Origin: Methylococcaceae bacterium
GTDB taxonomy: Bacteria; Pseudomonadota; Gammaproteobacteria; Methylococcales; Methylomonadaceae
Assembly (NCBI GenBank): GCA_030627285.1
Contig: DAOUSJ010000011.1
Span: forward strand, 1-32,862
Reading direction: 5' to 3'
DNA: 32,862 nucleotides
Part shown: positions 2,599 through 21,100 of the stretch, in pieces
Layout: each line of letters starts with the position of its first letter
Position numbering within the stretch: the first letter of the stretch is position 1
The notes under the pieces: model-generated
The model's database searches: none
The model's input: only the letters and a program-made list of their open reading frames with translations
Told to the model about the DNA's origin: nothing
Translations under genes and position numbers: made by a program

Positions 2599-3726
2599 TT
2601 ATACTGCTCCTGTTAATGCAATCTTAAATAATGGATATTCGTCACCATTAGTATCTTGTAGATATATTTCCAAAGTCTCAGCAGCTATTAATTTCAATTC
2701 TCCAGTTTTAAAGCGTGCTGTAGCTGCTTGAGTGCTATTCGGATAAATTTTAGCAATTTTACGTGAAGCTTTGCCCCAAAATATCTTTTGTGCAATAGAA
2801 TTTTTGCGAATATTTAATACCATACCTGTAGGCGCAATGTTATCTAAGACTATAACACCACCTAAATCAAAGGCCTGACCAGTAAGCAATACTTGCGGCA
2901 TAGTATCAATCTGCGCTTTTAAAATCCAATTAGGCAAAGTATGTACATGAATTTCTAACACCGCCATTTTTGCATTGGGTTTAAAGCTATCTACATTTAA
3001 CAATGCTTGTTCTAATTCATCAACGCCAGCAATACTTTGATATTTATCGCGTGTTCCTTGATCGCCTCTGCCAATTACTGCCATAGAAAATTCTTTATCA
3101 TTGGCAGAATCTTTAGATAAATGTAATCTATTCAACAAGGGTAATAAAGCTGTTATCGCTTGCTCTGAAGGCACTTTATATAGCTCTTCATAACTTAAAG
3201 CTAATGGTGAAATACCTTGACTAGTTAAATATTGCCATAATTTATGCAAGATTTGAATGCTTTCTTGTTCATGTTGAACTAATTTAGTCACTGGAATTTT
3301 TTCAATTTCTGCGTCTGGTTTGAGTTTACCTTTTGGCCCCCAAACTCCTGTGTTTTGCGCAAAATGCAATGACAACAATCTATCTCTAGAAGCTTCACGA
3401 TATAAAAATAAATGTTGATAATCCGCTTGCACACTTGCATCTGCTAACGCTGCAGTAACTGCCCAAGGAACCATTTCAACACAATGTTTAATAATTTCTT
3501 GACGCGCTATAATTGCTTGAATGCTACCAACCAATTGGGCTTGATCTTTAGTTTCGCGCCATTGTTTAGTAATATCACCATATTGTCTTTCAGGATTAAA
3601 AGGTTCATGTTCTGCAAAGGGTAATCCTGAGCGTTCAATCAAACGCTGGGTTAAATTAGTGCCACCAGTACGTTGTAAAGTCCAAATAATAAATGGTTTT
3701 GCTGATTTTTGATTCGAATTACTCAT
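2599..3726 (-). CDS. Sulfotransferase-like protein with C-terminal module, ~375 aa
   Basis: PFIIWTLQRTGGTNLTQRLIERSGLPFAEHEPFN (P-loop-like sulfotransferase N-terminus), HLFLYREASRDRLLSLHFA. Start MSNSNQ at 3726 preferred over track start 3759, as it overlaps the upstream stop by only 8 nt. Confidence 0.65.
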   Translation of the reverse strand: MSNSNQKSAKPFIIWTLQRTGGTNLTQRLIERSGLPFAEHEPFNPERQYGDITKQWRETKDQAQLVGSIQAIIARQEIIKHCVEMVPWAVTAALADASVQADYQHLFLYREASRDRLLSLHFAQNTGVWGPKGKLKPDAEIEKIPVTKLVQHEQESIQILHKLWQYLTSQGISPLALSYEELYKVPSEQAITALLPLLNRLHLSKDSANDKEFSMAVIGRGDQGTRDKYQSIAGVDELEQALLNVDSFKPNAKMAVLEIHVHTLPNWILKAQIDTMPQVLLTGQAFDLGGVIVLDNIAPTGMVLNIRKNSIAQKIFWGKASRKIAKIYPNSTQAATARFKTGELKLIAAETLEIYLQDTNGDEYPLFKIALTGAV

Positions 3727-6700
3727 TGTTTGCTGTATCATCCTGCATAAATTTAACAAAATCTTCGGTAGATTTATATTCTACTGACACTTTATCATTT
3801 CCAAACTTGCCTGTGCCTTCGTGTAACATTATGGCATATTTACGATATTCAGCTGCATCTCCAAAATGTTGCCCACGTTGAATTTCAGCCATAACTTTAG
3901 CTTTAAAACCTGCATGATATTTAAAATGTGCAAACCAAGTTTTTTGCTTAGAAACTTGTATATTCGCTGCATCATGTAAACCTTCTGAATACCGAATCCA
4001 AGGATAATAACGAATCAAAGCATATTTTTGACTGGTAAATGAATTTGGCGGAGTGTCACTAGATAACCTATGTCGCAATGCACTCAAATAAGTTGAGCTA
4101 TTACTATACATACCACTACCCAATTTCCATTCAGTTAAAGGATTTTTATCAAACCAAGCAGCAACTTTAAATGGTTCATCTTTAGAAAAATCCGCTTCAT
4201 TTAAATCTGTAAATGGATACATGTCAATCATGTAAGTTAACGCCGCATTACAACCTTCCGCTTCAATGGCTTCGATTAAATCATCTAAACTTCTATCATT
4301 ATCTTGTTCAAACACAAATAATTCATCTGCATCTGCTAAAATTACCCATTTACCTAAACAATGATTGCCTAAAATAGTTTGTTGCCAAACTACACCAAAA
4401 TGTGAATGCTTATATTCAGTATCAGCAGAATATAAAATTACATCTGGTTGTTTAAATAAATATTCCCGAGTGCCATCATCAGAACAATTATCCACCATCA
4501 TAAAACAATTAATTCCTAGCTTACGATAATGGGCTAAAAAATGCGGTAACATTAAAATCTCATTGCGAACTACAGTTACCACACAGGTTTCATATTCTAA
4601 TAAAGCATTCATCTGCTTAGGGTCAGTTAATAACTCTAGTTGATTACTGTTACCAGTTTTAATTTTTACATTACTACATGTAGGCCATAATTTTTTCGGC
4701 CATAATTCTTTGCTATGTCTTTTATCATAAGTGGGTTGTAAATCAAATTGGCTATCTAAATGCGCTACTTTTGTAGGGGTAGCTTGACATGGAAAAAAGA
4801 TATTTTCCCGAATTGATACTGGCATAGCTTCGGGAAATGTCCGTCGGCGTTGATAAGATTCATAATCTTCATTTGAAGGTGCAATAAAAGCTGAAGCTAA
4901 TAAATCTCCAACTAATTTATCTTCCATAAATGAACAAGAAATTAATCTTTCCCCACGGACAGTTTTTTCAGCAGCCAATAATTCAAACATAGCCAATCTG
5001 GATAAAGTATATCCGCCACCACCATCAGTATATACAGATGGTTCTGGTGATTTATCAATCCTTTTTTGCCCATTTTCAGCTTGGGATTTAGTTTGATGCC
5101 AAGTTCTATCCATGCCACCAACTTCACGATGAATAACTCGACCGTAATAAAAATGTTTTCTATAACTTAAACTATCAAAAAATTGTGCTACATCTAAATA
5201 ACAATCGTCATCTATTTTTAATACATATTGCGCATTGGTATGATTGTAAACCCAATCAAATAGTTTTAAGGTTTTTTGCGGTAAACTCTCATAGCGATCT
5301 GAAACATCTAAAGCCAAGACATCATCTTGTAAACTATCATCGCCATCACCAACTAAAATTACATATGGAATCTTGCGAGCTTTTAATTCTTGAATCCAAG
5401 TATCTCTAATTGCTTGTACACGAGTCTCTAAATATTTACGACATGAATAAATTACCACTAAAGTATCTTGTGGCCAGCCTGCTGTACTTAATTCTAATTT
5501 TAATTCTGAGGTCTTCTCAAACACAAATTCCATGCGTTCGCCAAATTTTTGCTTAATTAATTTGTGACATTCAGCTACAAATCCACGCAATAAGGAATCA
5601 GTTTGAATTAATTCACCTTGTAACCGTATTAGTCCAGATTGCACAGGTGCTGGCAAATACCAATCAGCTTTAGTTTCTTCTACAGCTTTTTGCAACATCC
5701 ATTGCATATGCGTCAAAATATGCGTTAATAACGCTGAACCTTGCTGTCCATATTGCGCAATCAAAATATAGGCACTAGCTAATAAATCAAAACTTAAAAA
5801 ACCACCTTGATAATCTGCGATTTTAATTACTGTCGGCCCTAACTTAGCAAATGCCTTTTCTACTTGTTCCAAATCAGCATCTTCATCTATGCATAAAAAT
5901 AATTCTTTTAACGCCTGACTAGCTTGCATTTGTAAATGCCAAGTAATACTTTTTTCTGGCTCACTTAAATTACGTAGTGTTTCCCTTATTACGGCAGGAT
6001 TAGTTTCGGGAAAATGTTGAATTAGTTGATTACTATCCGTCAAAGGAAATGCACTAATTCTTAAAGATTCTTTAACATCATCAGCTAATAATTTAGCAAT
6101 TAAATCTTGTCCTTTTGAAGATAAGGATTCATTTAATTCCGGTAAAGTATTTGCCAAAATTTCCCGCACAAAAAATACTGCTTCTGGATTATTTTTAGCT
6201 TGAAAATACATTAACGGGCGCGAAAGTTCTTCTAACCATGTAACTACCGAATGATTTTTATTAATTAAAGCTTGATGTAATTGTTGAAATTGTTGCTGTG
6301 CATAAGCCAATTCAGTTGTTAACAATGGTAATTGTTGTGCAGCTGCACGTTGCCAAAATGTAGGATTAAGTCCGTAATGTTGTAAAGTAGCATTTAAAAT
6401 ATCCGTGCGATGATAATCAGTATAGCGATCAAAATCTATTAACAACAATAATATGGAATCAATTAAATATCGGTCATGTAAGCGCGAAAACCAATCGCCT
6501 TTAAATGCAGTAATTAATTCGATTAAAGCGTAACGAAATGTTTGCCCCATTTCAATTTTAATTTCAACATCGGCTTCCATTTGCTGCAAAGCTTTTACTG
6601 AAAAATAAATGCATTCGGTACTTAACCAACCACTATCTAAATTTTTTGCCATTTTATACAGCAAACTTGTGACTCTTGGAATATCCTTATCTACCATAAT

Positions 6701-7915
6701 TGCTGGCAATGCAATACTCATTTGCCACAATTCATCACTTTTTTCTAAGTTTTGCAAATGTTTAAAATCAGATAATTCTCGTAAACGTAAAAACTCACCT
6801 TTAGCACATAATAATGGGGTTACTGAACGCAAAAAACCTTCTCTAGCTTCACCTTGTAATCTCAACTCATCAATAACAGTTCTTATTTCTTCAAAAACTG
6901 TACCTTCATGCTCTCTTAAACGAGAATTTAGTGTTCTTAAAGCCTTCCAAAGCAATAACATAGCAACACTTTCACTAATTTCTTCAGCTTCTGCAATCTC
7001 CAAATTACTATCAGGAGTTAGAAAAAAATCATCTAATTGCATTTGTTTAGCAAAATTAGTAATTATTTCTACATCTTCAGCTTCAAGTTCAGTTAAAAAA
7101 TTTCCGTAGCGAATATGTTCAACCGCCAATAACAAACGATATTGTTTTTCTTCCCCAGACTGCATTTGTAAAATATCAGCAATCCAATTTAAAACTTTCA
7201 ATCTATTTAATTCAGGTGGAATTAAATTAATAGTTTCAGCACCTAAACTTATATCCAATTGACACAAAATTTCTTCAGAATTCTGCTCCCAAATATATCC
7301 TGGCAATTCAGCTTCAAAACGATACCTAATTTTATCTATGCTAGATGAACGTTGTTCTTGGCGTAAAAATACCGAATTTAAAAATTCTCGATTACAAAAT
7401 AGTTTAGCTGCTGGAACTTCAGCAGATTCAGCAGGTACTTCTATCCAGCCTTGTAAAGTAAAATGTCCCCAAGCTTCTATTTCTGCACTTAATCCTGCAT
7501 TATCTTCACGAATACTACCAGATTCAGGCATTAATGCTTTTGCATTTGGATTTTGTTTTTGAGCAATATTTTCCAACAAAGTATTATTTGCAAACACTCT
7601 AATTGGTTTATTTAATGCTACAGCATTATGTAACATACTCGCTGTTTGCCCAGCAAATACAATTCTAAAACCGCAATCACTATTCTCTAATTCATATTTT
7701 GTTGCTACATCAATACGTTCAAACCACTTAGTCTGACCTTGACATAAATTGCCATCAATTTCACATTCAAGCTTTAAATTTAGCCCAGCTTTATGAATTG
7801 CCCAACCATGAACTCCATCAGAAGCTATTTTATCTATATAACCAACAACTTCAGCTTCATTAGTTATTTTTTTGAAAAAACTACGCATATTTGGCAAAAT
7901 TTTGGTTTTTTTCAT
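3719..7915 (-). CDS. Very large multidomain glycosyltransferase (GWA-type N-terminal domain + long helical region + GT31-like domain + GT2/GT92-like domain), ~1398 aa
   Basis: N-term GYIDKIASDGVHGWAIHKAG; central LVVIYSCRKYLETRVQAIRDTW...QKTLKLFDWVYNHTNAQYVLKIDDDCYLD...GGGGYTLSRLAMF...CSFMEDKLVG (GT31-like); C-term ETCVVTVVRNEILMLPHFLAHYRKLGINCFMMVDNCSDDGTREYL...WVILADADELF. Start at 7915 gives an ATGA overlap with the upstream gene (track start 7942). Confidence 0.85.
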   Translation of the reverse strand: MKKTKILPNMRSFFKKITNEAEVVGYIDKIASDGVHGWAIHKAGLNLKLECEIDGNLCQGQTKWFERIDVATKYELENSDCGFRIVFAGQTASMLHNAVALNKPIRVFANNTLLENIAQKQNPNAKALMPESGSIREDNAGLSAEIEAWGHFTLQGWIEVPAESAEVPAAKLFCNREFLNSVFLRQEQRSSSIDKIRYRFEAELPGYIWEQNSEEILCQLDISLGAETINLIPPELNRLKVLNWIADILQMQSGEEKQYRLLLAVEHIRYGNFLTELEAEDVEIITNFAKQMQLDDFFLTPDSNLEIAEAEEISESVAMLLLWKALRTLNSRLREHEGTVFEEIRTVIDELRLQGEAREGFLRSVTPLLCAKGEFLRLRELSDFKHLQNLEKSDELWQMSIALPAIMVDKDIPRVTSLLYKMAKNLDSGWLSTECIYFSVKALQQMEADVEIKIEMGQTFRYALIELITAFKGDWFSRLHDRYLIDSILLLLIDFDRYTDYHRTDILNATLQHYGLNPTFWQRAAAQQLPLLTTELAYAQQQFQQLHQALINKNHSVVTWLEELSRPLMYFQAKNNPEAVFFVREILANTLPELNESLSSKGQDLIAKLLADDVKESLRISAFPLTDSNQLIQHFPETNPAVIRETLRNLSEPEKSITWHLQMQASQALKELFLCIDEDADLEQVEKAFAKLGPTVIKIADYQGGFLSFDLLASAYILIAQYGQQGSALLTHILTHMQWMLQKAVEETKADWYLPAPVQSGLIRLQGELIQTDSLLRGFVAECHKLIKQKFGERMEFVFEKTSELKLELSTAGWPQDTLVVIYSCRKYLETRVQAIRDTWIQELKARKIPYVILVGDGDDSLQDDVLALDVSDRYESLPQKTLKLFDWVYNHTNAQYVLKIDDDCYLDVAQFFDSLSYRKHFYYGRVIHREVGGMDRTWHQTKSQAENGQKRIDKSPEPSVYTDGGGGYTLSRLAMFELLAAEKTVRGERLISCSFMEDKLVGDLLASAFIAPSNEDYESYQRRRTFPEAMPVSIRENIFFPCQATPTKVAHLDSQFDLQPTYDKRHSKELWPKKLWPTCSNVKIKTGNSNQLELLTDPKQMNALLEYETCVVTVVRNEILMLPHFLAHYRKLGINCFMMVDNCSDDGTREYLFKQPDVILYSADTEYKHSHFGVVWQQTILGNHCLGKWVILADADELFVFEQDNDRSLDDLIEAIEAEGCNAALTYMIDMYPFTDLNEADFSKDEPFKVAAWFDKNPLTEWKLGSGMYSNSSTYLSALRHRLSSDTPPNSFTSQKYALIRYYPWIRYSEGLHDAANIQVSKQKTWFAHFKYHAGFKAKVMAEIQRGQHFGDAAEYRKYAIMLHEGTGKFGNDKVSVEYKSTEDFVKFMQDDTANNE

Positions 7916-10578
7916 GGGGACGTGTTTAAAAGTGATTGACAATGTTTTAAATAATTCACAAAGTGGTCATTAATTATATGAGGTGTATGTGACATTTGCA
8001 AAGGCATTAAATGTTCTTTAGCATTAATTGCATGTAATCTGCGCGCAATCGCACCTAAATCAAATGCAGCTACTTGATAGCCACCAGCTAAAGCTAAGGA
8101 TAAAGTATAACTATAAGTTTCTGGCCACAAAGAAGGCAACCATACAATATGTGGTTTTAAACGAGTTAAATATGCTTGGGCTTCAGAATCTAAATAACGC
8201 CCAGTAATTTTTACATCAAATTTTTGTAAAACTTTATCGTTTAAACTATAGCCCATTAACAAAAATTCTAGGGGTAATTTACGTTTTTTAGCATCTTGCG
8301 CACAGGCTAATAAAACTTCATAACCTTTAATTTTACCCACACCACCAATAACCACAATTTTAAGTTTTTCATTAGATTTTATTACAGGCGGTTGTAATTG
8401 AATTTGTTGTGAATTAATTTCTTCATGCGGAGCTACAGTAAATTCAATCGTCGGAAAATAATTCTCTAGTCTAGTTTTAACATCTTCATCCGGTACAATT
8501 ACCTTATTTGCTTGGGTAAATAAAGCTCCACGCATCGCACGCCAAACGTTTATATCTAATACATCAAAACTAGATCCTCTAGTTTTAAGACAATTATTGC
8601 ATACATCTATTTCAGGTTCACCGCAATATACCCCATTTTGATCTACCAAATTAATTCTTGGGCAAATAGCTTTATAATCATGTACATATACATCTACTGG
8701 TGCATTAATTTCATGTGCTAAAGCTAAAATTATTTCAGAAGTATGTAGTAAAAAATCCACTAAACTATGTACGTGAATTGCGGTAATATTTAAAGCTTTT
8801 AACGCTATCACTAAAGTTTCTGTACTATCTAGATCAATTGCTTGATAGTTACATAAACTTCTAATAAGTGGATGTTTTAAAATTATTTTATGTTTATTAC
8901 CTTGCATAGGACGCATTAAAAATACCCCATGACCAGCTTTATTTAACCTAAGAATATTTTCTTGCACACTTCTTTCCGAACCACCACCACGATTATGACT
9001 CACAATCAAAATGTTAGCAGATTTTACAAACCTTTGCATTCGCGCCCAATCTAAACGCTGTCTATATACTAATAGTGGATCTTGTTGAATAAACTGTTCT
9101 ACATCAGTTTGATAATTTGGATAGCGTTGATTCACAATTTTTAAAGCTGCTCCAATGCGCTGAGATTTTTCACCTTGAAAAGAAGTTTCACCCCAATGAC
9201 GTACAAATACATTGGCAGCAATTATATTATTCCAACCTTGTTGAATTGCTCGCTGACAAAAATCATTTTCTTCTCCATAACCTTTGCCAAAAGCAGCAAC
9301 ATCAAATTCTCCCACTGCAGTTAAACAATCGCGCTTAATGTACATGCAAAATCCTACCGCAGTAGGGGTAATTACAGTGGCATTAACATTTATTTCACTG
9401 GCAATTTTATCTAAAAATTTATAGTCCAGTTCCAATGGGTATGGATTGTCATGTAAAAAGCGTGGATAACTACAAATAGTAGCGTTATTAGATAATGGCG
9501 TTACAGTACCAGTATTACCGTGGATAAATGCGGCTGCATGTAAACGATCTAGCCAACCAGAGTAAACTTCGGTGTCAGAATTAAGTAAAACTACATTACG
9601 TTTTGAATTGCATGCCATGCCACGATTGACAGTGCCGACAAAACCCACATTAGTTTCATTAACCAATAAGGTGAATAATTTTAACTCAGCTAATTGGCTT
9701 AATTTAGCAACTAATTCTGCATCAGGACTAGCATCATCAATAATAATTAATTCGAATAATAAATTATTGGCTGCGGTTAATGCACTGTAAATACAGCGTA
9801 AAGTTTCTAAATAACCTTTATAAACTGGAATAATAACATCAACAGTTGCCTGCGTAGTATCAACAGGGACTAATTTTTGCCACACGGCTAAATCCAATAC
9901 GTTAACTCTAACTATAATATCTGAGCTTTCAGAATCAAATAATATTTTGGAAGTTTTTGGAACTACGCAGCGTTCTTCTACACGACCACTTCTAAGATAG
10001 TGTAATAATGGATTAACTTTAGCCTCTGCAACTTCAGGATTTGAAGCTAAATAATATAGTCCATTAAACTGTGGACACGGCGAACGTCCTTCTGTTCCAC
10101 CCCAAGTTAAATAATGTTTTAATGGTTCAATTCCAGAACGAGCAACATCTTTATTTTCTTGCAAATAATAATTAATATCAAACCATGGACTAGGGGATAA
10201 ACCTAAATAACGCCCAACATATGCGTAGTGTAATAATGCATTTACAGTTTTTAACTTACTTTGGCATTGAGTGCGATAATATTTAGGATCAAATAGCGGC
10301 ATTGGATTGCGCCCTTCTTTATCACCCCAAACTGCATAATGATGTAGCGGCGAAAACCCTTGCTGATTCACATCAGTATTCATTTCTAAATAATATTCTG
10401 CATCAAATAAAACTGTTCTTTTGATAAGATAACGTAAATGTCGCCGATGAAAAACTTGTACCTTAACTAACGCAGCAATTTTTTTTTCAAAAAATAAACC
10501 ACCTAAAAGAATTCTACCCTTCCATATCAAAAGTTTGGTTTTAAGTGGCAATCCTGAATAATTTTTAAACCATGCCAT
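7912..10578 (-). CDS. Two-domain glycosyltransferase (GT2 + GT4-like) with N-terminal FDxxYYL/HY/EGR repeats, 888 aa
   Basis: VDVIIPVYKGYLETLRCIYSAL...ELIIIDDASPD...VVLLNSDTEVYSGWLDRL (GT2); ILIVSHNRGGGSERSVQENI...LKIVVIGGVGKIKGYEVLLACAQDA (GT4-like); four N-terminal repeat units. Confidence 0.88.
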   Translation of the reverse strand: MAWFKNYSGLPLKTKLLIWKGRILLGGLFFEKKIAALVKVQVFHRRHLRYLIKRTVLFDAEYYLEMNTDVNQQGFSPLHHYAVWGDKEGRNPMPLFDPKYYRTQCQSKLKTVNALLHYAYVGRYLGLSPSPWFDINYYLQENKDVARSGIEPLKHYLTWGGTEGRSPCPQFNGLYYLASNPEVAEAKVNPLLHYLRSGRVEERCVVPKTSKILFDSESSDIIVRVNVLDLAVWQKLVPVDTTQATVDVIIPVYKGYLETLRCIYSALTAANNLLFELIIIDDASPDAELVAKLSQLAELKLFTLLVNETNVGFVGTVNRGMACNSKRNVVLLNSDTEVYSGWLDRLHAAAFIHGNTGTVTPLSNNATICSYPRFLHDNPYPLELDYKFLDKIASEINVNATVITPTAVGFCMYIKRDCLTAVGEFDVAAFGKGYGEENDFCQRAIQQGWNNIIAANVFVRHWGETSFQGEKSQRIGAALKIVNQRYPNYQTDVEQFIQQDPLLVYRQRLDWARMQRFVKSANILIVSHNRGGGSERSVQENILRLNKAGHGVFLMRPMQGNKHKIILKHPLIRSLCNYQAIDLDSTETLVIALKALNITAIHVHSLVDFLLHTSEIILALAHEINAPVDVYVHDYKAICPRINLVDQNGVYCGEPEIDVCNNCLKTRGSSFDVLDINVWRAMRGALFTQANKVIVPDEDVKTRLENYFPTIEFTVAPHEEINSQQIQLQPPVIKSNEKLKIVVIGGVGKIKGYEVLLACAQDAKKRKLPLEFLLMGYSLNDKVLQKFDVKITGRYLDSEAQAYLTRLKPHIVWLPSLWPETYSYTLSLALAGGYQVAAFDLGAIARRLHAINAKEHLMPLQMSHTPHIINDHFVNYLKHCQSLLNTSP

Positions 10579-10590
10579 ATTTAATAGTCC

Positions 10591-11505
10591 TCAAAAAAGA
10601 CTGCCTTGTAAAACCCTTAATAAATATTGTCCATATTCATTCTTTATTAATGGTTGCGCCAAATTTTCTAAAGTATTTGCACTAATCCATTGTTGCCGAT
10701 AAGCAATTTCTTCAGGACAAGCAATTTTTAAATTTTGGCGGCGTTCTAAGGTGGCAATAAATTGTCCAGCCTCAAGTAAAGATTCATGCGTGCCTGTATC
10801 TAACCACGCATATCCACGCCCCATAACTTCAACATTTAAAGCTTGATTGGTTAAATAAACTCGGTTTAAATCAGTAATTTCATATTCACCTCGAGCTGAG
10901 GGCTTTAACTCACTAGCAATATCTACTACTTGATTATCATAAAAATATAAACCTGTAACTGCATAATTAGACTGCGGTTTTTCAGGTTTTTCTTCTAATG
11001 AAATTGCCGTACCTGCATTATCAAATGCAACGACACCATAGCGTTCTGGATCAGTAACATGATATGCAAATACGGTTGCGCCGGTAGTAGTTGCAGTAGC
11101 ACGTTCTAACTGCGCTTGCAGGCTATGACCATAAAATATATTGTCGCCTAAAACTAAAGTAACCGCATCTTGGGCAATAAAATCTTTGCCAATTACAAAT
11201 GCTTGCGCTAAACCATCGGGTTTTTCTTGCACTGCATATTGAATATCCAAACCCCATTGATGCCCATTACCTAATAATTGTTCAAATCTAGGCGTGTCTT
11301 GTGGAGTTGAAATTATTAAAATTTCCCTAATTCCAGCCAACATCAAAGTGGATAAGGGATAATAAATCATCGGCTTATCATAAATAGGCAACAGTTGTTT
11401 AGAAATAACCTGAGTTACAGGATATAAACGAGTTCCTGAACCACCAGCAAGAATAATCCCTTTCCTATTAGTAGTTGTAGTGTGAGTATTTATACTGGCA
11501 GTCAT
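10591..11505 (-). CDS. rmlA: Glucose-1-phosphate thymidylyltransferase
   Basis: [53 protein letters not shown], a characteristic RmlA N-terminus; adjacent rmlD/B/C. Confidence 0.97.
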
Positions 11506-11552
11506 AATAATTTTGTGAGTTAATTCGTCAATATTGGGCTATAAGTATGACT

Positions 11553-12452
11553 TTAAGGGGTTATTTCTGCAAGCATTCTAATTACCCCAACTTCCCAAGC
11601 TGGCAAAGTTAGCTTAAAAGCAGTAACAAGCTTGGCAGTATTTAAACATGAATTCTGCGGTCTAGTTGCAGGAGTAGGAAAAGCACTAGTTGGAATTGCT
11701 TGTACAGAATTTGGCTTAACTTTTAACTCTATTCCTGACTTTTGCGCAGTGCTTAAAACTAATTTAGCATATTCAAACCAACTAGTTTTACCAGTAGCAA
11801 CTAAATGATATAGTCCTGATAACTGCGGTTGCAAGTGGCATTTACTCAGTGCTTGAGCAGTTACATCTGCAATTAAATCTGCTCCTGTAGGTGCGCCAAT
11901 TTGATCGTTAATTACACTTAAACTTTCACGGCTAGTAGCCAAACGCAACATAGTTTTTGCAAAATTATTCCCACGCGAGCTATAAACCCAACTGGTACGA
12001 AAAATTAAATGTTTGCACCCAGAAGCTTGAATTTTTTGTTCTCCAGCTAATTTACTAGCCCCATAAATATTCAATGGTTGCACTACATCAGTTTCAATCC
12101 AAGCTTTATTACCAGCGCCATTAAACACATAATCAGTGGAATAATGAATTAACCAAGCATTACATTTTAAAGCTTCAGCTGCTAAAGATTCTACCGCTAA
12201 ATTATTAATTTGATTTGCTAATTCAATTTCAGTTTCAGCTTTATCTACTGCAGTATAAGCCGCAGCATTTACGATTACATCAGGTTTAATACTGCGAATA
12301 GTATCTATTAATAACTGTAAATTTTCTAAATCACCGCAATATCCCTGAGCATTAACTTGTCTATCTAAAGCAATTAATTCGCCTAAAGGAGCTAAAGCAC
12401 GTTGCAATTCCCAACCAACTTGACCATTTTTACCTAATAATAAAATTTTCAT
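11553..12452 (-). CDS. rmlD: dTDP-4-dehydrorhamnose reductase
   Basis: MKILLLGKNGQVGWELQRALAPLGELIALDR; NAAAYTAVDKAE; STDYVFNG; YGASKLAGEQ. Confidence 0.97.
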   Translation of the reverse strand: MKILLLGKNGQVGWELQRALAPLGELIALDRQVNAQGYCGDLENLQLLIDTIRSIKPDVIVNAAAYTAVDKAETEIELANQINNLAVESLAAEALKCNAWLIHYSTDYVFNGAGNKAWIETDVVQPLNIYGASKLAGEQKIQASGCKHLIFRTSWVYSSRGNNFAKTMLRLATSRESLSVINDQIGAPTGADLIADVTAQALSKCHLQPQLSGLYHLVATGKTSWFEYAKLVLSTAQKSGIELKVKPNSVQAIPTSAFPTPATRPQNSCLNTAKLVTAFKLTLPAWEVGVIRMLAEITP

Positions 12453-12457
12453 ATTAA

Positions 12458-13537
12458 TTAAGTCCGCGCAGAATAATTTTTATCTAACCATTCCCGATAC
12501 GCACCAGATTGTACATTTGCCACCCATGCTGAATTATCTAAATACCACTGTACAGTTTTTTGAATTCCAGTATTGAAAGTTTCCGCAGGTTTCCAACCTA
12601 ATTCACGTTCAATTTTGCTGGCATCAATAGCATAGCGTCTATCATGCCCTAATCTATCAGTAACATAAGTAATTTGCTCTCGGTAAGATTTACCATCTGT
12701 ACGTGGGCGTTTGGTATCTAATAAATCACAAATAGTATGCACAATATCAATATTTGCCATTTCATTCCAACCACCAATATTATAGGTTGCACCTACTGTT
12801 CCAGCGGCTAACACCTGATTAATAGCAGTGCAATGATCGACTACATATAACCAATCTCTAATTTGTTGACCATCACCATAAATAGGTAAATCCTTATCAG
12901 CTAAAGCATTTGCAATTACTAATGGGATTAATTTTTCTGGAAATTGATACGCACCATAATTATTCGAACAATTAGTAGTTAATACTGGAATTCCATAGGT
13001 GTGATGATATGCACGCACTAAATGATCGCTAGAAGCTTTGCTAGCTGAATAAGGGCTATTAGGTTCATAAGTGTGAGTCTCTGTAAATGCAGGTTCTTCA
13101 ACTGCTAAAGACCCATATACTTCATCAGTAGAGACGTGTAAAAACCTAAATTGTTGTTGTGCAATTTCAGTTAACAAATTCCAATATGAACGCACTGATT
13201 CTAATAAATGAAATGTACCAACTATATTGGTTTCAATAAAATCTTCAGGTCCATGAATAGAACGATCAACATGTGATTCAGCTGCAAAATTAATAATGGC
13301 TGTAGGTTGATATTTAGTTAATAATTCAGTAACTAAATTCTTATCGCCAATATCTCCTTGCACAAATACATGTCTAGCGTCATCCTTTAAAGCAACCAAA
13401 TTTTCCATATTGCCCGCATAAGTTAGTTTATCCAAATTAATAATTTTTGCATCAACATCTGCTTGTTGCAACCATGTCAAAACAAAATTTGCGCCTATAA
13501 ATCCAGCACCGCCAGTAACAAGAATAGTTTGAGTCAT
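12458..13537 (-). CDS. rmlB: dTDP-glucose 4,6-dehydratase
   Basis: ILVTGGAGFIGANFV; AAESHVDRSI; STDEVYGSL; YSASKASSDHLVRAYHHTYG; NCSNNYG. Confidence 0.97.
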   Translation of the reverse strand: MTQTILVTGGAGFIGANFVLTWLQQADVDAKIINLDKLTYAGNMENLVALKDDARHVFVQGDIGDKNLVTELLTKYQPTAIINFAAESHVDRSIHGPEDFIETNIVGTFHLLESVRSYWNLLTEIAQQQFRFLHVSTDEVYGSLAVEEPAFTETHTYEPNSPYSASKASSDHLVRAYHHTYGIPVLTTNCSNNYGAYQFPEKLIPLVIANALADKDLPIYGDGQQIRDWLYVVDHCTAINQVLAAGTVGATYNIGGWNEMANIDIVHTICDLLDTKRPRTDGKSYREQITYVTDRLGHDRRYAIDASKIERELGWKPAETFNTGIQKTVQWYLDNSAWVANVQSGAYREWLDKNYSART

Positions 13538-13546
13538 ATTGAATTT

Positions 13547-14104
13547 TTATGCTGTGTAATGAGGTAAATTTGCTGCTTCAAAATCTGCTAACTTAATTCC
13601 TTGTTGATCCTTAACAGATAATTCTGGATTATTAACAGGCCATGGAATATTTAAAGCTGCATCATCCCATAATACACAGCCTTCAGCAGTTGGATTATAA
13701 ATATCGGTACATTTATATGCGAATAATGCCGTGGCAGAAGTTACACAAAAACCATGTGCAAACCCTGATGGTACATAAAACTGTTTTTTATTTTCCGCAG
13801 ATAATAATACACTCACCCATTGTCCAAAAGTTGGAGATCCAAGCCGAATATCTACCGCAACATCAAACACTTCGCCTTGCAATACATGTACTAATTTACC
13901 TTGAGGGTTTACAGTTTGGAAATGTAATCCACGTAATACACCTTGTTTAGAAAAAGATAGATTATCTTGGACAAAATTTTCCGTGGTTACTTGCTCTGCA
14001 TAACGTTGTTGATTCCAAGTTTCTGTAAAAAAACCGCGTTCATCGCCAAAAACTTTGGGTTCAATAATTACCACCCCAGCTAATTTTGTTGTATGTACTT
14101 GCAT
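13547..14104 (-). CDS. rmlC: dTDP-4-dehydrorhamnose 3,5-epimerase
   Basis: GVVIIEPKVFGDERGFFTETWNQQRY; QDNLSFSKQGVLRGLHFQ; FYVPSGFAHGFCV. Confidence 0.97.
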   Translation of the reverse strand: MQVHTTKLAGVVIIEPKVFGDERGFFTETWNQQRYAEQVTTENFVQDNLSFSKQGVLRGLHFQTVNPQGKLVHVLQGEVFDVAVDIRLGSPTFGQWVSVLLSAENKKQFYVPSGFAHGFCVTSATALFAYKCTDIYNPTAEGCVLWDDAALNIPWPVNNPELSVKDQQGIKLADFEAANLPHYTA

Positions 14105-14125: not shown

Positions 14126-15844
14126 TTAGAAAGCTAAAATTGTGCGCGCACCCAAGGCTAATTGATAAATCATGGTCATAATTTCTTTAGCAAATTGGCG
14201 AGATTTTAAATCAACTTTAGGCAAAACTAAAATTTCATCCCCTGGACGAATAATAATTTCTTCAGAAAACATACTGTTTTTCTCGGCTATGTCTTCAAAA
14301 CTACCATCTACATGCGCAATAATAACCCGATTACTATCTGCATTTTGTGAATAACCACCTGCATTTTCAATATAGTATTCAAAAGTTTTATTGGGTTCAA
14401 TTGCAATCGTATTTGGAAACATTACTTCTCCACTTACTAACACTAAATTATTCAATGCAGGAATTTTTATTATATCGCCATTTTCTAATAATAACTCATT
14501 TAATGCGGTAGCCTGTGAAATCACTACTTGCCCAGATGGTTCTATATCCTTTGCCCGCGTCACCCATTGCATAATTAATTCAGCTTCGCTAGCACGTAAT
14601 TGAGCTTCATCAGTAGTTCCAGAACGTGCAGTTAACACACTAGCTTCCAATCTTTCCAATGAAGTTAGGAGTAATTCTTTTTGCCGTTCACGCACACTAT
14701 GACGAAACAATTGTAAATTTTTAAAATCTGAATTTACTGAATATTCTATTTGGGTTATTAAATCGCCTAATAATGCTCCATGTGGTAATACATATTCTTG
14801 CGCGCTTTTATGTTCACCTTCAACTCGTACAGTGATAGTTCCAGGTTTTTTATCCGCAGTAAATTCTAATTCATCGCCACTTTCTAAGATAATATTCGCG
14901 GCCTCATATAGAGGAAAATATTCAATGTTTTTAATCACACCGGTATTGCGCACAATTCTTACATGCGTAGTTTTGGAACTTGGTTTAGAGACTTCTATTA
15001 AATCAGCGACAGTATTACGATTATGATTAAATTCAAATACTTTGGCATTCGCAACTAAGCCAGATACAATCACACTTTTTTGTTTTGGAGATACAAAAAT
15101 CACATCACCATTTCCAAGTTGAATCAGTGGAATTTGTCCATTTAATAAAAAATCATATAAATTTACAGTCGCACGAACATAAGAACCGCGTTTTACTTGC
15201 ACGTTTAAAAAAGACCCTCTCTCCGCATCAATACCTCCAGACTGGTCTAAATAATGTAATAAACTATCCATGCTAGTACCACTATATAAACCTGGACGAT
15301 TCACAAAACCACTGACAAATACACGTACTGGTTGGGCAGCGGCTAAACTAGCGTAACTAGATACATTAGCTAAAAATACTTTTCTAACCGCAACCGAAAA
15401 TAAACTTTGTAATTCTTTATTCCGAATCCCTAAAATTTTTATAGGCCCTATATGTGGTACAAATACATTGCCTTGAGGATCAACAGTTAAAAGTGCATCA
15501 TATTCAAAAGCCCCCCAAAAACGTACTTGAATTTGGTCACCTGTAGCAATCACATAATCTGGATTAAATTGCGTAGCTCCTTCACGCGCGAAAGCTCCGG
15601 TAAATAAATTTGCTCCAAAAACATTACTCTTTATATTAACCGAATAGTCAAATAATTGTGGATTAGAAATTATTGTGGTTGGTGCAATTGCAGCTGGCGG
15701 AGTAGCCACTGGAATTTGATTTACAGGTGGAGTAGGTGGAGATAAAGTTAAAGCTTGTTGCAAATCAATTGCAAATACATTTGAAGCTATTATGAGTAAT
15801 AACAGACTACATAAATTTAATCTTAGTTTGTTAAAGAATTTCAT
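14126..15844 (-). CDS. Outer-membrane polysaccharide export protein, KpsD/Wza-like with SLBB domains
   Basis: Signal peptide MKFFNKLRLNLCSLLLLIIASNVFA; YVIATGDQIQVRFWGAFEYDALLTVDPQGNVFVPHIGPIKI; VFVSGFVNRPGLYSG. ATG at 15844 preferred over the TTG at 15865 used by the track. Confidence 0.88.
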   Translation of the reverse strand: MKFFNKLRLNLCSLLLLIIASNVFAIDLQQALTLSPPTPPVNQIPVATPPAAIAPTTIISNPQLFDYSVNIKSNVFGANLFTGAFAREGATQFNPDYVIATGDQIQVRFWGAFEYDALLTVDPQGNVFVPHIGPIKILGIRNKELQSLFSVAVRKVFLANVSSYASLAAAQPVRVFVSGFVNRPGLYSGTSMDSLLHYLDQSGGIDAERGSFLNVQVKRGSYVRATVNLYDFLLNGQIPLIQLGNGDVIFVSPKQKSVIVSGLVANAKVFEFNHNRNTVADLIEVSKPSSKTTHVRIVRNTGVIKNIEYFPLYEAANIILESGDELEFTADKKPGTITVRVEGEHKSAQEYVLPHGALLGDLITQIEYSVNSDFKNLQLFRHSVRERQKELLLTSLERLEASVLTARSGTTDEAQLRASEAELIMQWVTRAKDIEPSGQVVISQATALNELLLENGDIIKIPALNNLVLVSGEVMFPNTIAIEPNKTFEYYIENAGGYSQNADSNRVIIAHVDGSFEDIAEKNSMFSEEIIIRPGDEILVLPKVDLKSRQFAKEIMTMIYQLALGARTILAF

Positions 15845-15851
15845 CAAATTG

Positions 15852-15921
15852 TGTGTGATACCCAATCTTTTTAGATTTGAGAGGTAAGCGCGTCAGGATT
15901 AAATCCGACCTCCATCACACA
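15852..15921 (-). promoter_or_regulatory. Nested inverted repeats, potential three-way-junction leader RNA
   Basis: Outer stem tgtgtgat (15852-15859) / atcacaca (15914-15921); arm aatct-tttt-agatt (15864-15877); arm gaggt (15881-15885) / acctc (15908-15912) enclosing ggat-taa-atcc-type pairing. Confidence 0.4.
15871..15915 (-). other. Possible 14-aa leader ORF (MEVGFNPDALTSQI*) in the kpsD-like gene leader
   Basis: ATG at 15915, TAA at 15871-15873, preceded by AGGA-like ribosome-binding sequence (TAGGAAATGTGTGATGG). Confidence 0.3.
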
Positions 15922-15983
15922 TTTCCTATTATTTAAGGCTTACTTTAATTACTAAGAAAAACTGTTAAAAATATTCTGCAACT

Positions 15984-17111
15984 TTATTCTTTATGATCCA
16001 AAATAACCACAGTGAGTAAATTCATGATTCCAAAAATTACTAAAATTAATAATATTGACACCACTGAGTTATAGATTCTGTTTGGCTTTAATGGATATTC
16101 TGGCATTGTTGGAGCCTGCAAAATTGACATTTTTTTAAGAGTTCTGGATGCTTCTATACGACCTTTTTCCATAGCTACTAAAGTAGTTTGATAAACCTCT
16201 TGCGCAAATTGAGATTTTAATTGTAATTGTTGATACTCTTCAACAGTTTTGTTGAGGGATTTACTATTTTTGGAATTAGAAGTTAAATGCGATTTTTCTT
16301 TTTTAATTTGCTTTTTAATCGCCTGAATTTGTAATTCCAATTCAACTATATTGGCACTAGTTGGAACTAAATAACCTAACAAAGCAATTTTTTGCGCTTG
16401 TAATTCAGCTAATTTTGCTTCCATACTATTCACTATTACCGCATAATTTTCAGCAGTATTTTGCGGTGAAATTAAATCGTGTTTATTTTGATAACTTAAT
16501 AATTCATGGCGAGTATTTAATACTCTTGCTTCCATGGTTTTAACTTCAGTGCTTAGAAATTTTACTTGTTCATAAGCAAGTTGTTTGGCGATTTCATTCA
16601 TAAAAACTTCACCTTCTACAATCATTAAAGAAGAAATTTCATGCGCTATTTCTGGAGTAAAAGCCTGTGACTGAATAATTAACAATCCCGCATAATCATC
16701 AAACTCAACTACTATTCTGGATAAATAATATTCAAAAAATTCTTCAATAAAATTATCTTTTTTCCACATTCTAGATAACAAATCTAACTCTAAATTACTA
16801 TAATGCGTGCGTAAATCTAATGCGTCATCTAATTTTTTAAGCATATCAATAGATAGCAAATGGTCGCGCAATAATAACTGGTCTGTTTGATTACCAGAAC
16901 CACTATTACCTAAAATTAAACCACCAAAATCTACACTTTGACTGGCAGCCAAATCAGCTTGTTGAATAATAATATGTGCTTCAGATACATATCTATCTGA
17001 GGCAACAAAATTCCAATAATAAATAGACGCCGTAGAGCATAAAATAATCATCCATAAAAATGGGTGTTTAAATATTGAAAAAATACTCAGGATTTTTTTT
17101 AATAATTTCAT
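15984..17111 (-). CDS. Capsule polysaccharide export inner-membrane protein, KpsE/BexC/CtrB-like (Wzz domain)
   Basis: N-term TM, YYWNFVASDRYVSEAHIIIQQAD, coiled coil, C-term TM following PTMPEYPLKPNR; adjacent to kpsT/kpsM-like genes. Confidence 0.88.
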   Translation of the reverse strand: MKLLKKILSIFSIFKHPFLWMIILCSTASIYYWNFVASDRYVSEAHIIIQQADLAASQSVDFGGLILGNSGSGNQTDQLLLRDHLLSIDMLKKLDDALDLRTHYSNLELDLLSRMWKKDNFIEEFFEYYLSRIVVEFDDYAGLLIIQSQAFTPEIAHEISSLMIVEGEVFMNEIAKQLAYEQVKFLSTEVKTMEARVLNTRHELLSYQNKHDLISPQNTAENYAVIVNSMEAKLAELQAQKIALLGYLVPTSANIVELELQIQAIKKQIKKEKSHLTSNSKNSKSLNKTVEEYQQLQLKSQFAQEVYQTTLVAMEKGRIEASRTLKKMSILQAPTMPEYPLKPNRIYNSVVSILLILVIFGIMNLLTVVILDHKE

Positions 17112-17773
17112 TTAGGTAGACTATCCTTAAAAGCCCTCAAAGCCTCATCAATATCATCAAACCAATAAACCTTGCCTTGATTTAAAAATATTCCAGATTT
17201 ACAAAAATTTTTTAAAGTTCCTTCTGCATGTGAAACCATAATTAAACTAGCTCTACCTGCTAATTTTTTAAATGCTTGTTTGGCTTTCTTTTTAAAAGTA
17301 ATATCTCCAGCTCCAGTCACCTCATCGGAAATATACACATCAAAATCAATTGCTAAAGATAAAGCAAATTGCAATTTTGAACGCATTCCAGAGGAATAAG
17401 ATTTTACAGGTTCATCAAAATATTCTTTAAGCTCTGCAAATTCCTGAATATATTGCATACGTTCTGGAATATCTGCTGCATGTCCGTGAATTCTACAAAC
17501 AAATTTAGCATTTTGTCTGCCAGTTAACGAACCTTGCAAACCACCGCCATAACCCATTTGCCAAGAAACACTGCATCTACGTTCAATTTTACCTTTAGTA
17601 GGCGTGTCTGCTCCGCCTATTAAACGTAATAAAGTAGATTTTCCTGCACCATTCAAGCCGATCAAACCTACACTGGTACGCGGTGGAATAACTAAATTCA
17701 CCCCTTGTAACACCCATTTACTGTAACCATGACTTGTACGGTAACGTTTATGAACATCATCAACAATAATCAT
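17108..17773 (-). CDS. kpsT: Capsule polysaccharide ABC transporter ATP-binding protein, KpsT-like
   Basis: VGLIGLNGAGKSTLLRLIGG Walker A; VKSYSSGMRSKLQFALSLAIDFDVYISDEVT; 221 aa; ATGA overlaps with both neighbours. Confidence 0.92.
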   Translation of the reverse strand: MIIVDDVHKRYRTSHGYSKWVLQGVNLVIPPRTSVGLIGLNGAGKSTLLRLIGGADTPTKGKIERRCSVSWQMGYGGGLQGSLTGRQNAKFVCRIHGHAADIPERMQYIQEFAELKEYFDEPVKSYSSGMRSKLQFALSLAIDFDVYISDEVTGAGDITFKKKAKQAFKKLAGRASLIMVSHAEGTLKNFCKSGIFLNQGKVYWFDDIDEALRAFKDSLPK

Positions 17774-18576
17774 GCTTGAATCATGCGGCTTGAATAACGA
17801 CGATATAATACTAGACCAAAAAATATCATGCTAAAAGCAAAACTATATAAATATCCTAAACTCAATTCTGGAATTGTATGATAATAAGGCGCAAACCCTA
17901 AACGAATTGCATCTACACCATGTAATAATGGATTATATGCTAACCATTGGCGATATTCTGCGGGAATAATAGTTATGGGTAAAATTACCCCAGAACAAAA
18001 ATATAATGGCATCATTAAAATTGCGATAAATTTACCTGCAACTGGAATTAAGGTAGATACTACTGAAGTAATTAAGCCAAAACCCACTCCCATCAACCAC
18101 ATTCCAAAAAATACTATTAAGACCATAAGTGGATCATCTGGAAACATACCAAAATCAAATAAAAAACTACCACAAAATAAAATTATCGCTACCATAATTC
18201 CAATCACACCTTCTAAAAACGCGCGACTAATTACTGTGTCTATAGGTTTTACTTGTCGATAAGTAAATAATGCTTTATTGGAATTTACCGAATTTTGGAG
18301 TTGTTTACCAGTAGATCTAAACATATTAAAGGCTATTAAACCTGTCATCAACCAAATTGGAGTATTAATACCACCAACAATTCGCATTCTAATAGTAGTA
18401 AAAATAAATACCATCATAGCTATTTGAATCATTGGATCCAAAAATATCCATAACCATGCAGTACGATTAGCAGATAACCTACTGATAACTTCACGTAAAA
18501 ATAGGGCTTTCCAAACTGAAATGGCAACATTCAATGGCGATCTGGCTATATATTCTTTAACCTTTGGCTCGATCAT
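17770..18576 (-). CDS. kpsM: Capsule polysaccharide ABC transporter permease, KpsM-like
   Basis: ABC-2 permease: ALFLREVISRLSANRTAWLWIFLDPMIQIAMMVFIFTTIRMR; YFCSGVILPITIIPAEYRQWLAYNPLLHGVDAIRLGF. Confidence 0.92.
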   Translation of the reverse strand: MIEPKVKEYIARSPLNVAISVWKALFLREVISRLSANRTAWLWIFLDPMIQIAMMVFIFTTIRMRIVGGINTPIWLMTGLIAFNMFRSTGKQLQNSVNSNKALFTYRQVKPIDTVISRAFLEGVIGIMVAIILFCGSFLFDFGMFPDDPLMVLIVFFGMWLMGVGFGLITSVVSTLIPVAGKFIAILMMPLYFCSGVILPITIIPAEYRQWLAYNPLLHGVDAIRLGFAPYYHTIPELSLGYLYSFAFSMIFFGLVLYRRYSSRMIQA

Positions 18577-18616: not shown

Positions 18617-19354
18617 TCAAGAAACAGTCCAAAAAAAAGAGGTACTATAATATTTATGCTTTTCTACTACTAAATCTAAGTAATTTTCATGCCAAATTTC
18701 TTCTTTAGCGTTATTAGATTTGTCTTTGCTTTTAGTATATTTCAAATTATCTTTTAAATTAAAGTGTACTAATGCCGAAATACCAACATGACGTGGAACT
18801 TGAAGTTGTTGCGCTATAGTCATAGATGTATTTAAAGGCGTACCACTCCAAACCAATTCTTTTTGTCGTGTATGTTTACTATTAATACCCACACATAAAA
18901 CTTCACCATCATCAATTCCTATAGCAAAATTCAATACTTCATACACTTCCAATAATTTTCTAACTTTAGAATACTCATTAGTTAACATATATTTAATTTT
19001 TAAGGCAGATTTAACAGCATTATTCAAAGAATATTGTGTCGTTCCTTGAAAAAATATATAAAATCCATTTTCAGTTATTTTTCTAACACTACCACCCAGA
19101 TTATGTACTATTTCAACTACCAAATAAAAATATATACTTCTAAATTTTGCCACCATAGCAGGATTATTTTTAGATAAAATCTCGTCCAAATTTTTTATTA
19201 ATATGCACAACACAGTAGCTTCAAATTTTAGTCCTTTATTACCACTATTTAAACGTTTATCGCCTATTTTAGGAACATTATCACATTCTTCAGTTTCAAA
19301 AGGACTGTTAAGTATTTGCTGTACTGCATTTTCTATTTCTATTTTCATAATCAC
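18617..19354 (-). CDS. Class III adenylate/guanylate cyclase-like catalytic domain protein, apparently degenerate (lost metal-binding Asp residues)
   Basis: VEIVHNLGGSVRKITENGFYIFFQGTTQYSLNNAVKSALKIK...LNFAIGIDDGEVLCVGINSKHTRQKELVWSGTPLNTSMTIAQQL follows the cyclase homology domain pattern; expected Asp sites are not Asp. Confidence 0.65.
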   Translation of the reverse strand: MIMKIEIENAVQQILNSPFETEECDNVPKIGDKRLNSGNKGLKFEATVLCILIKNLDEILSKNNPAMVAKFRSIYFYLVVEIVHNLGGSVRKITENGFYIFFQGTTQYSLNNAVKSALKIKYMLTNEYSKVRKLLEVYEVLNFAIGIDDGEVLCVGINSKHTRQKELVWSGTPLNTSMTIAQQLQVPRHVGISALVHFNLKDNLKYTKSKDKSNNAKEEIWHENYLDLVVEKHKYYSTSFFWTVS

Positions 19355-19381: not shown

Positions 19382-21100
19382 CTATGGCTTTTCAAGCACA
19401 CCTAATTCAACAATTCTATTCAAAACAATTTCAACTGCATCTTCCATAGAATATTTAGAAGTATCTATACTTAATTCAGGATTTTCAGGCACATCATATG
19501 GATCATCTATACCAGTAAAACCTTTAATTTTACCAGCTCTAGCCAAAGCATATAAACCTTTACGATCACGTTGTTCACATACTTCAATAGGTGTAGAAAC
19601 ATGAATTTCAATAAAAGTTCCATGTTCTTCTATAGCCTGTCTAACTTTGTTCCTTGTTCGTACATAAGGTGCAATTGGAGCGCAAACTGCAATCCCGCCA
19701 TGTTTAGTAATTTCACTAGCGACATAGCCAATCCGTAAAATATTTAAATCTCGGTGTTCTTGTGAAAAAGTTAGTTCACTAGATAACATTTTTCTTACTA
19801 CATCACCATCTAATAAGGTAACTTTACGCCCACCATATTCTAGTAATTTTATTAAAACTCCATTAGCTAAAGTAGATTTTCCAGAGCCAGAAAAGCCAGT
19901 AAAAAATAAAGTTACACCTTGTTTAGAGCGTGGAGGTAAAGTGGTATGTAATTCTTTAATTACCTCAGGATAAGCAAACCATTTTGGAATTGGTTGCCCT
20001 AATTTTAATAATTCTCTAAGTTCTGTACCAGAAACATATAAGCCAGTTTCATTGGGTAATAATTGCTGTTCTTCACAAAATTCTTCGCGTTCAGGAGCAT
20101 ACAATAAAAATGGTGCCGATAAAATTTTAATTGCTAATTGATCTTGATATGACAACACCAATTCTTGCGCAGCTTGAACATCATAAAAATTTCCACCTCG
20201 ATTATTACGTCCAGGTCCTGCATGATCGCGTCCAACAATAAAATGACTAAAGCCATAATTTTGGCGAATAATTGCTTGCCACAATGCTTCTCTAGGCCCG
20301 GCCATCGACATTGCTAATGGAAACAAACTTAACATTGCAGAGTTTTCTGGATAATGCTGGAGAATTTTTTCATAACAACGTACACGACTATAATGATCTA
20401 TATCGCCTGGCTTTGTTACTCCGACAGCAGAATGAATTACCAAATTAGCTTGATGTTCAGCCATTAGACGTTTAGTCATAATCACATGCGCTCTATGCAC
20501 AGGATTTCGAGTTTGAAACGCAATAACTCGTGACCAGTTTTGAGTTTTAAAATAATTTCTTAATTGTAGTGGCGTATGTCTTAGAGATTTAAAATCATAA
20601 TGATATGGTGGCGTAATACCAACCAAGCTCCCACCTAAATAATAAGCTCCCGCTTCATTTAATAAATGTCTTACCCCAGGATGACTAGCATCATTCATCC
20701 CAAATACTGCTTGCGCTTCTGCCACATGATCTGCTTGCCAACAAGAATCAATAGTCATATTGGCAATTAATACTCCTTCTGGATCACGTAACGCAATGAT
20801 TTCACCAATTTCTATAGATTTAGCAAAAGCTTCAGAAACATCTAAATTAATTGGCATTGACCATAAAGTGCCGTTTGCCAAGGTCATAGACTTTAAAACC
20901 GCAGTATAATCTGCTTGATTTAAAAATCCTGTTAGCGGTGAAAAAGCTCCATTTAATAAAAGTTCCACGTTACAAAGTTGGCGTTTAGATAAATCCCATG
21001 ATTTACTATGCTGGGATTTTTGTTTTTCTAAGGCTATTTGTTGGGAATCTACATATAGATTTAATAATTCCCCGCCATGTGCATGAATAATTTCAGTCAT
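19382..21100 (-). CDS. Bifunctional sulfate adenylyltransferase / adenylylsulfate kinase (PAPS synthesis), 572 aa
   Basis: Sat: RQLCNVELLLNGAFSPLTGFLNQADY, VIAFQTRNPVHRAHV, FIVGRDHAGPG; APS kinase: GVTLFFTGFSGSGKSTLANGV, LLDGDVVRKMLSSELTFSQEHRDLNILRIGYVA. Confidence 0.95.
   Translation of the reverse strand: MTEIIHAHGGELLNLYVDSQQIALEKQKSQHSKSWDLSKRQLCNVELLLNGAFSPLTGFLNQADYTAVLKSMTLANGTLWSMPINLDVSEAFAKSIEIGEIIALRDPEGVLIANMTIDSCWQADHVAEAQAVFGMNDASHPGVRHLLNEAGAYYLGGSLVGITPPYHYDFKSLRHTPLQLRNYFKTQNWSRVIAFQTRNPVHRAHVIMTKRLMAEHQANLVIHSAVGVTKPGDIDHYSRVRCYEKILQHYPENSAMLSLFPLAMSMAGPREALWQAIIRQNYGFSHFIVGRDHAGPGRNNRGGNFYDVQAAQELVLSYQDQLAIKILSAPFLLYAPEREEFCEEQQLLPNETGLYVSGTELRELLKLGQPIPKWFAYPEVIKELHTTLPPRSKQGVTLFFTGFSGSGKSTLANGVLIKLLEYGGRKVTLLDGDVVRKMLSSELTFSQEHRDLNILRIGYVASEITKHGGIAVCAPIAPYVRTRNKVRQAIEEHGTFIEIHVSTPIEVCEQRDRKGLYALARAGKIKGFTGIDDPYDVPENPELSIDTSKYSMEDAVEIVLNRIVELGVLEKP

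Follow-up and report, generated by a model that had tools for sequence, protein, structure and literature searches.

Genomic setting of the fusion gene

The window, the whole 32,862-nucleotide stretch analysed here, is an entire contig, one end of which falls inside orf1, within a capsule gene cluster, and additional transferases may be missing from view. The host is a low-GC bacterium that carries a pmoA/amoA-family gene and is therefore probably a methane oxidiser. On the minus strand, positions 3719–7915 are likely a gene for a 1398-aa protein, with an ATG start at 7915 that overlaps the stop codon of an upstream glycosyltransferase (GT) gene (ATGA, 7915–7912); a TTG start at 7942 would give 1407 aa, and residue numbers throughout follow this longer reading. 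The chain comprises, in order, two N-terminal beta-sandwiches, a helical stretch of about 560 aa, a GT31 domain and a Glyco_tranf_2_4 domain, and a profile search found it to be the sole Galactosyl_T match of the 1.93-Mb host genome. The first-pass annotation had described a ~1398-aa chain joining a GT31-like domain to a second GT domain; both domains score above their Pfam cut-offs, and the search for homologues of equal architecture that it proposed found them in four other genomes at 43–49% identity. Because the whole architecture recurs in these genomes, a frameshift or assembly artefact is ruled out.

Upstream, also on the minus strand, lies a second multi-domain GT gene (7912–10578; 888 aa) with GT2 (PF00535, 49.1 bits) and GT4-like parts (GT4 profiles below cut-off). 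It is followed by rmlA, rmlD, rmlB and rmlC for dTDP-L-rhamnose synthesis (10591–14104, minus strand; TIGR01207, TIGR01214, TIGR01181 and TIGR01221, over NCBIfam cut-offs) and by export genes (14126–18576, minus strand) for an SLBB/Poly_export (KpsD/Wza-like) protein, a BexC/CtrB/KpsE-like protein, an ABC ATPase and an ABC-2 permease; the KpsE-family profile matched with E = 2e-80 and 270 bits, below the curated 437.5. The same strand then encodes a bifunctional ATP sulfurylase/APS kinase for synthesis of PAPS (19382–21100; PF01747 and PF01583; NF004040, 808 bits, over cut-off) and a CitMHS/Na-sulfate symporter family transporter (21116–22882; PF03600 and PF00939), which by its family probably takes up sulfate. 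Beyond the transporter, at higher coordinates, come a glmU-like gene and then the atp operon. Between the export genes and the PAPS synthetase, positions 18617–19354 encode a 245-aa protein with a weak adenylate/guanylate cyclase match (18.6 bits, below cut-off), possibly a regulator.

Downstream of the fusion gene are three sulfotransferase-like genes and an arabinofuranosidase-like gene. The first sulfotransferase-like companion (2599–3759, minus strand) has no Pfam match, is conserved beside the roseobacter homologues of the fusion gene and near the homologue in genome G505, and is a candidate for a new sulfotransferase family. The other two, likewise on the minus strand, are a Sulfotransfer_3 protein (1564–2595; PF13469, 35.6 bits) and a Sulfotransfer_2, or carbohydrate sulfotransferase, protein (929–1549; PF03567, 39.7 bits). 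Positions 1–873, cut by the contig end, encode a secreted alpha-L-arabinofuranosidase-like glycoside hydrolase (PDB 4atw, 4e-11; no Pfam match).

KpsC- and KpsS-type proteins (two Capsule_synth proteins) are encoded elsewhere in the host genome, and the genome thus holds the components of an ABC-dependent (group 2/3) capsule system: a KpsE-like protein, an ABC ATPase and permease, a Poly_export/SLBB protein and KpsC/KpsS-type proteins. PAPS synthesis and sulfotransferases are found here in one cluster, which is the criterion for a sulfated capsule locus in PMC11641403. In that paper a sulfated capsule of solved chemistry is attributed to a locus of Vibrio sp. KMM 8419, which shares dTDP-Rha and PAPS synthesis, sulfotransferases and ABC export with the window but has other transferases, with no GT31 listed in the available text (PMC11641403). 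The sulfated ABC-capsule setting is the strongest functional clue to the window protein.

Two conserved catalytic modules

The GT31 domain (aa 825–1063; 4754–5470, minus strand) matched PF01762 (Galactosyl_T) over aa 843–1022 with 54.2 bits against a cut-off of 23, and the whole protein matched the Fringe profile PF02434 with 31.8 bits against 21; PF01762 was also over cut-off in the four other GWA-type proteins. Motifs picked out earlier in the two GT domains (IRDTW, KIDDDCYLD, GGGGYTLS, MEDKLVG, VVRNE, MVDNCSDDGT and ILADADELF) are all present in the open reading frame. In an alignment of 17 homologues, D911–913, G974/G975, E1007–D1008 and H1061 are invariant and stand in GT31 order. These belong, all on the minus strand, to the DxD motif (D911-D912-D913; 5204–5212), which aligns with the DDD of B3GALT6 and B3GNT2; the glycine-rich loop DGGGGY (aa 973–978; 5009–5026), in which Y978 is also invariant; the invariant xED motif (M1006-E1007-D1008; 4919–4927); and a C-terminal histidine (4760–4762). 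In the GT-A site of human B3GNT2, the DxD holds both the metal and the donor, the base is the xED aspartate and the C-terminal histidine is a metal ligand (PMC7948508). D1008 is accordingly placed by analogy with B3GNT2 D333 as the predicted catalytic base, and H1061, by analogy with the C-terminal histidine, as a predicted metal ligand (PMC7948508).

A profile of the GT31 region searched against the PDB returned GT31 enzymes only at E < 0.01, led by human B3GALT6 (2e-8) and B3GALT5 (6e-7) and including B3GNT2 (4e-3), with matches over the DxD region. Membership of the GT31 family is well supported by these profiles and by the ordered active-site elements. An AF2 model of the catalytic half (aa 799–1407) from a two-row alignment reached a pLDDT of 30, and we infer the GT-A fold from the profile matches. 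Relative to human B3GALT6, B3GALT5 and B3GNT2, the window protein has the DxD, glycine loop, xED and C-terminal histidine in equal order and a profile score above cut-off, but it is bacterial, multi-domain and fused to a GT2-type domain. A search of the open-access literature found no description of a bacterial GT31.

The C-terminal domain (aa 1119–1375; 3818–4588, minus strand) matched PF13704 (Glyco_tranf_2_4) over aa 1126–1223 with 79.2 bits against a cut-off of 27.5. Of the earlier description as GT2/GT92-like, the GT2 part holds and the GT92 part falls away: a Pfam search with E up to 0.1 gave no GT92 match. Its DxD lies in ADADE (aa 1203–1207; 4322–4336, minus strand), where D1204, D1206 and E1207 are invariant in the 17 homologues, as are this domain's RNE and SDDG elements; it showed no counterpart of the xED. 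A PDB search with it gave GmaR alone, at a non-significant E of 0.03. An animal chondroitin synthase type of enzyme (GT31 plus GT7) was rejected: no GT7 profile was returned, and the C-terminal domain is Glyco_tranf_2_4. The profile matches 252 of 298 Rhodobacteraceae genomes, nearly all through free-standing proteins, which share this domain with the C-terminus of the window protein but are ~340 aa long and lack the GT31 fusion.

Both catalytic modules are kept in all 17 aligned proteins, and the earlier claim of two catalytic domains in one chain is borne out by Pfam scores over cut-off and by the invariant catalytic residues. COSMC, a known catalytically dead GT31 member (PMC7185993), gives a precedent for a degenerate module that would act as a scaffold and leave a single transferase activity. 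COSMC has lost its DxD and xED, however, whereas the GT31 catalytic residues and the GT2_4 DxD are invariant here across 17 proteins, and we regard a degenerate module as very improbable.

Beta-sandwiches and helices of the N-terminal half

AF2 modelling of the N-terminal half used two sequences and gave a mean pLDDT of 55.6. The two sandwiches of the model span about aa 32–118 and 161–240. The N-terminal GWA-type domain of the first-pass annotation is thereby predicted to be two tandem beta-sandwich modules: a first GWA module (aa 30–118; 7589–7855, minus strand), with strands at a pLDDT of about 65–75, and a second, GWA-like module (aa 156–240; 7223–7477, minus strand), with strands at low confidence, whose W218 is invariant in 17 homologues. 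Foldseek matched the model weakly to tandem Ig-like domains (best E 1.5e-3, low TM), which we take as support for two beta-sandwiches and nothing beyond. Elsewhere in the host genome, a 308-aa protein (L029:1319–2245, contig C14) has a sulfotransferase-like stretch, RGGTSMVSGTL, and a segment resembling the N-terminal GWA module, which suggests that the GWA beta-sandwich may be common to transferases and sulfotransferases. In the host's bacterial family, loci L009, L011 and L013 (G053 C9) and L008 and L012 (G028) have long open frames (2738 and 1541 aa) that contain GWA-type modules in several copies.

The motif-free helical region of ~600 aa noted earlier corresponds, with moderate confidence, to an all-helical, solenoid-like region of AF2 helices (aa 247–809; ~5516–7204, minus strand; pLDDT up to 87 in parts). 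It had no Pfam match, and a sequence search of the PDB was also empty. Among relatives the region is homologous yet divergent, at 16–43% identity. An NCBIfam hit to segregation protein A within it (17.6 bits against a cut-off of 436) was dismissed as chance.

Distribution of the fusion and its neighbourhood

Full-length relatives occur in G019 (~44% identity overall), G513 and G505 (45–49% over BLAST segments) and Sulfurisoma sediminicola (43%); they are 1387–1458 aa long, with their parts in identical order. Four of 311 genomes of the order have a GT31 domain, in every case as the GT31+GT2_4 fusion, and an even sample of the phylum added one further genome of 399, again with the fusion. The fusion is rare and patchy. 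Viral contigs contained no relatives of the window protein.

Twelve Roseobacteraceae proteins carry the GT31 and GT2_4 pair, with 43–47% identity where the pair was aligned alone. Most of them also have the helical region, matched more weakly, and more than half have a third, N-terminal GT2 module. Five of the 12 are encoded on sequenced plasmids (Sulfitobacter, Thalassococcus, Tropicibacter and Palleronia). A tree built from the catalytic half separates the GWA-type proteins, as a single group (100/100), from the roseobacter proteins.

Parts of the locus recur with the gene. No galE is present in the window; in G019 and G513 galE lies directly upstream of the homologue, and in Sulfurisoma it is separated from it by a few genes. 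An APS kinase gene adjoins the Sulfurisoma homologue, and one lies within a few genes of the homologue in G505. Counterparts of the ABC ATPase, permease, KpsE-like and sulfotransferase-like proteins are encoded beside roseobacter homologues on several plasmids or contigs, with rml genes in several loci, and three Roseobacteraceae plasmids with replication initiator A unite the homologue, an ABC exporter, rmlABCD and sulfotransferases. The same combination likens the window to the Roseobacter rhamnose-operon plasmids reported in 2016, as these are cited in PMC10090131 and PMC13386836; the window differs in that its contig also carries the atp operon and comes from a bacterium with a pmoA/amoA-family gene.

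This distribution bears on whether the protein might build a fixed, non-repeating segment (a linker, primer or cap), as B3GALT6 does in the glycosaminoglycan linker. B3GALT6 is the best PDB match, and the KpsC/S-type proteins imply an existing linker region. Yet the Kdo linker is normally the work of KpsC/S themselves, the two GT polypeptides visible in the locus would leave few candidates for the repeat, and a rare and patchy gene is what is usual for repeat-unit genes. A fixed-segment builder is thus an improbable identity for the protein.

Galectin domains in roseobacter relatives

Whole-protein scans matched several roseobacter homologues to PF00337 (Gal-bind_lectin), with scores above cut-off for four; the domain of the Thalassococcus protein also matches Caenorhabditis elegans LEC-6 (1e-5) and human galectins. 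Of the 12 roseobacter homologues, 11 have the galactose-binding signature H-x3-R...N...W-x2-E, which the five GWA-type proteins lack; all the ORFs of these loci (338,278 aa) contain only 13 occurrences, these 11 included. Its presence points to a beta-galactoside as the putative ligand. The galectin domain sits at the chain position of the first N-terminal module. PF00337 occurs in seven of 298 Rhodobacteraceae genomes, all seven among the eight that have the GT31 fusion (present as fragments in G1261). Galectin-family domains at L030–L033 and L065–L070 (Roseobacteraceae; for example, L031:11082–11462) were, as sampled, only inside GT31+GT2_4 fusions. The window protein itself was rejected as a galectin–GT31 enzyme, having neither a PF00337 match nor the H-R-N-W-E signature.

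A survey of 153 genomes placed PF01762 and PF00337 in one protein in land plants only (PMC5225481), where such proteins are the GALT1–6 galactosyltransferases (PMC4687291). The roseobacter pairing contradicts that land-plant-only statement (PMC5225481). Like GALT1–6, the roseobacter homologues join PF00337 and PF01762; unlike the plant enzymes, the bacterial forms have an extra helical region and a GT2_4 module, and the window protein is without a galectin.

Proposed function

The domains, invariant catalytic residues and conserved gene neighbourhood are legible in the sequence itself. We consider the window protein probably to be a cytoplasmic bifunctional GT responsible for part of the backbone of a sulfated capsular polysaccharide. 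Its GT31 module would be an inverting, metal-dependent beta-1,3-glycosyltransferase, with UDP-galactose or a related UDP-hexose as the most likely donor, and its GT2_4 module would add a second sugar; donor, linkage, order of action and the working of both modules on one chain are what we infer. GT31 donors also include UDP-GlcNAc, UDP-GalNAc and UDP-Glc; here the sugar is probably galactose because of the B3GALT matches, the galE neighbours and the galectin domain in relatives. A probable role of the helical solenoid and N-terminal beta-sandwiches is to position the growing chain or keep hold of it. Further residues, presumably rhamnose among them, would come from the neighbouring 888-aa GT2+GT4 protein; the sulfotransferases would modify the chain with locally made PAPS, and the KpsMTED-type ABC exporter would move the polymer out.

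A stronger version makes the protein a true chain polymerase, its modules alternating on one chain end as in Escherichia coli KfoC, so that one protein would make a disaccharide repeat. Polymerisation of ABC-exported capsules takes place in the cytoplasm and often relies on multi-domain GTs, two intact catalytic modules are present per chain in 17 of 17 homologues, and the helical solenoid could be a spacer. Set against this, the 888-aa GT2+GT4 protein and the rml genes imply more than two sugars, and the third, N-terminal GT2 module is present in over half of the roseobacter proteins. The alternating-sugar polymerase suggested in the first-pass annotation is compatible with the data; equally, the two modules may supply one each of two consecutive residues in a repeat that the 888-aa protein helps to build. 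We hold the disaccharide polymerase to be rather unlikely, and keep to the bifunctional backbone GT as the probable function.

More speculatively, and with a tentative standing of its own, the protein may belong to a bacterial class in which a galectin-type or other beta-sandwich module, a GT31 and a second GT make a sulfated galactose-containing polymer, with the lectin holding the nascent chain for processive synthesis. The polymer of such a class might resemble animal glycosaminoglycans or plant arabinogalactans, and its carriers might be the Roseobacter rhamnose-operon plasmids and a few other proteobacterial genomes.

In animals, core linkages of mucins and of glycosaminoglycan linkers are the work of GT31 enzymes, as are those of arabinogalactan proteins in plants; bacterial members with intact active sites would serve as models and tools. 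The position of such genes in sulfated-capsule loci would give experiments a way into the sulfated polysaccharides of bacteria. For some Roseobacter rhamnose-operon plasmids, the locus that they share with the window further suggests what their polymer may be: a sulfated one that probably contains rhamnose and galactose.

A further genome of the host's taxonomic class (G276) encodes a 1338-aa protein (L026:36–4052) with TPR, a GT2 domain that also has GT7C, a second GT2 domain, a GT31 domain and a weak capsular/DXD-type domain. It likewise sets a bacterial GT31 domain within a multi-GT chain, but its similarity to the window protein is confined to that domain.
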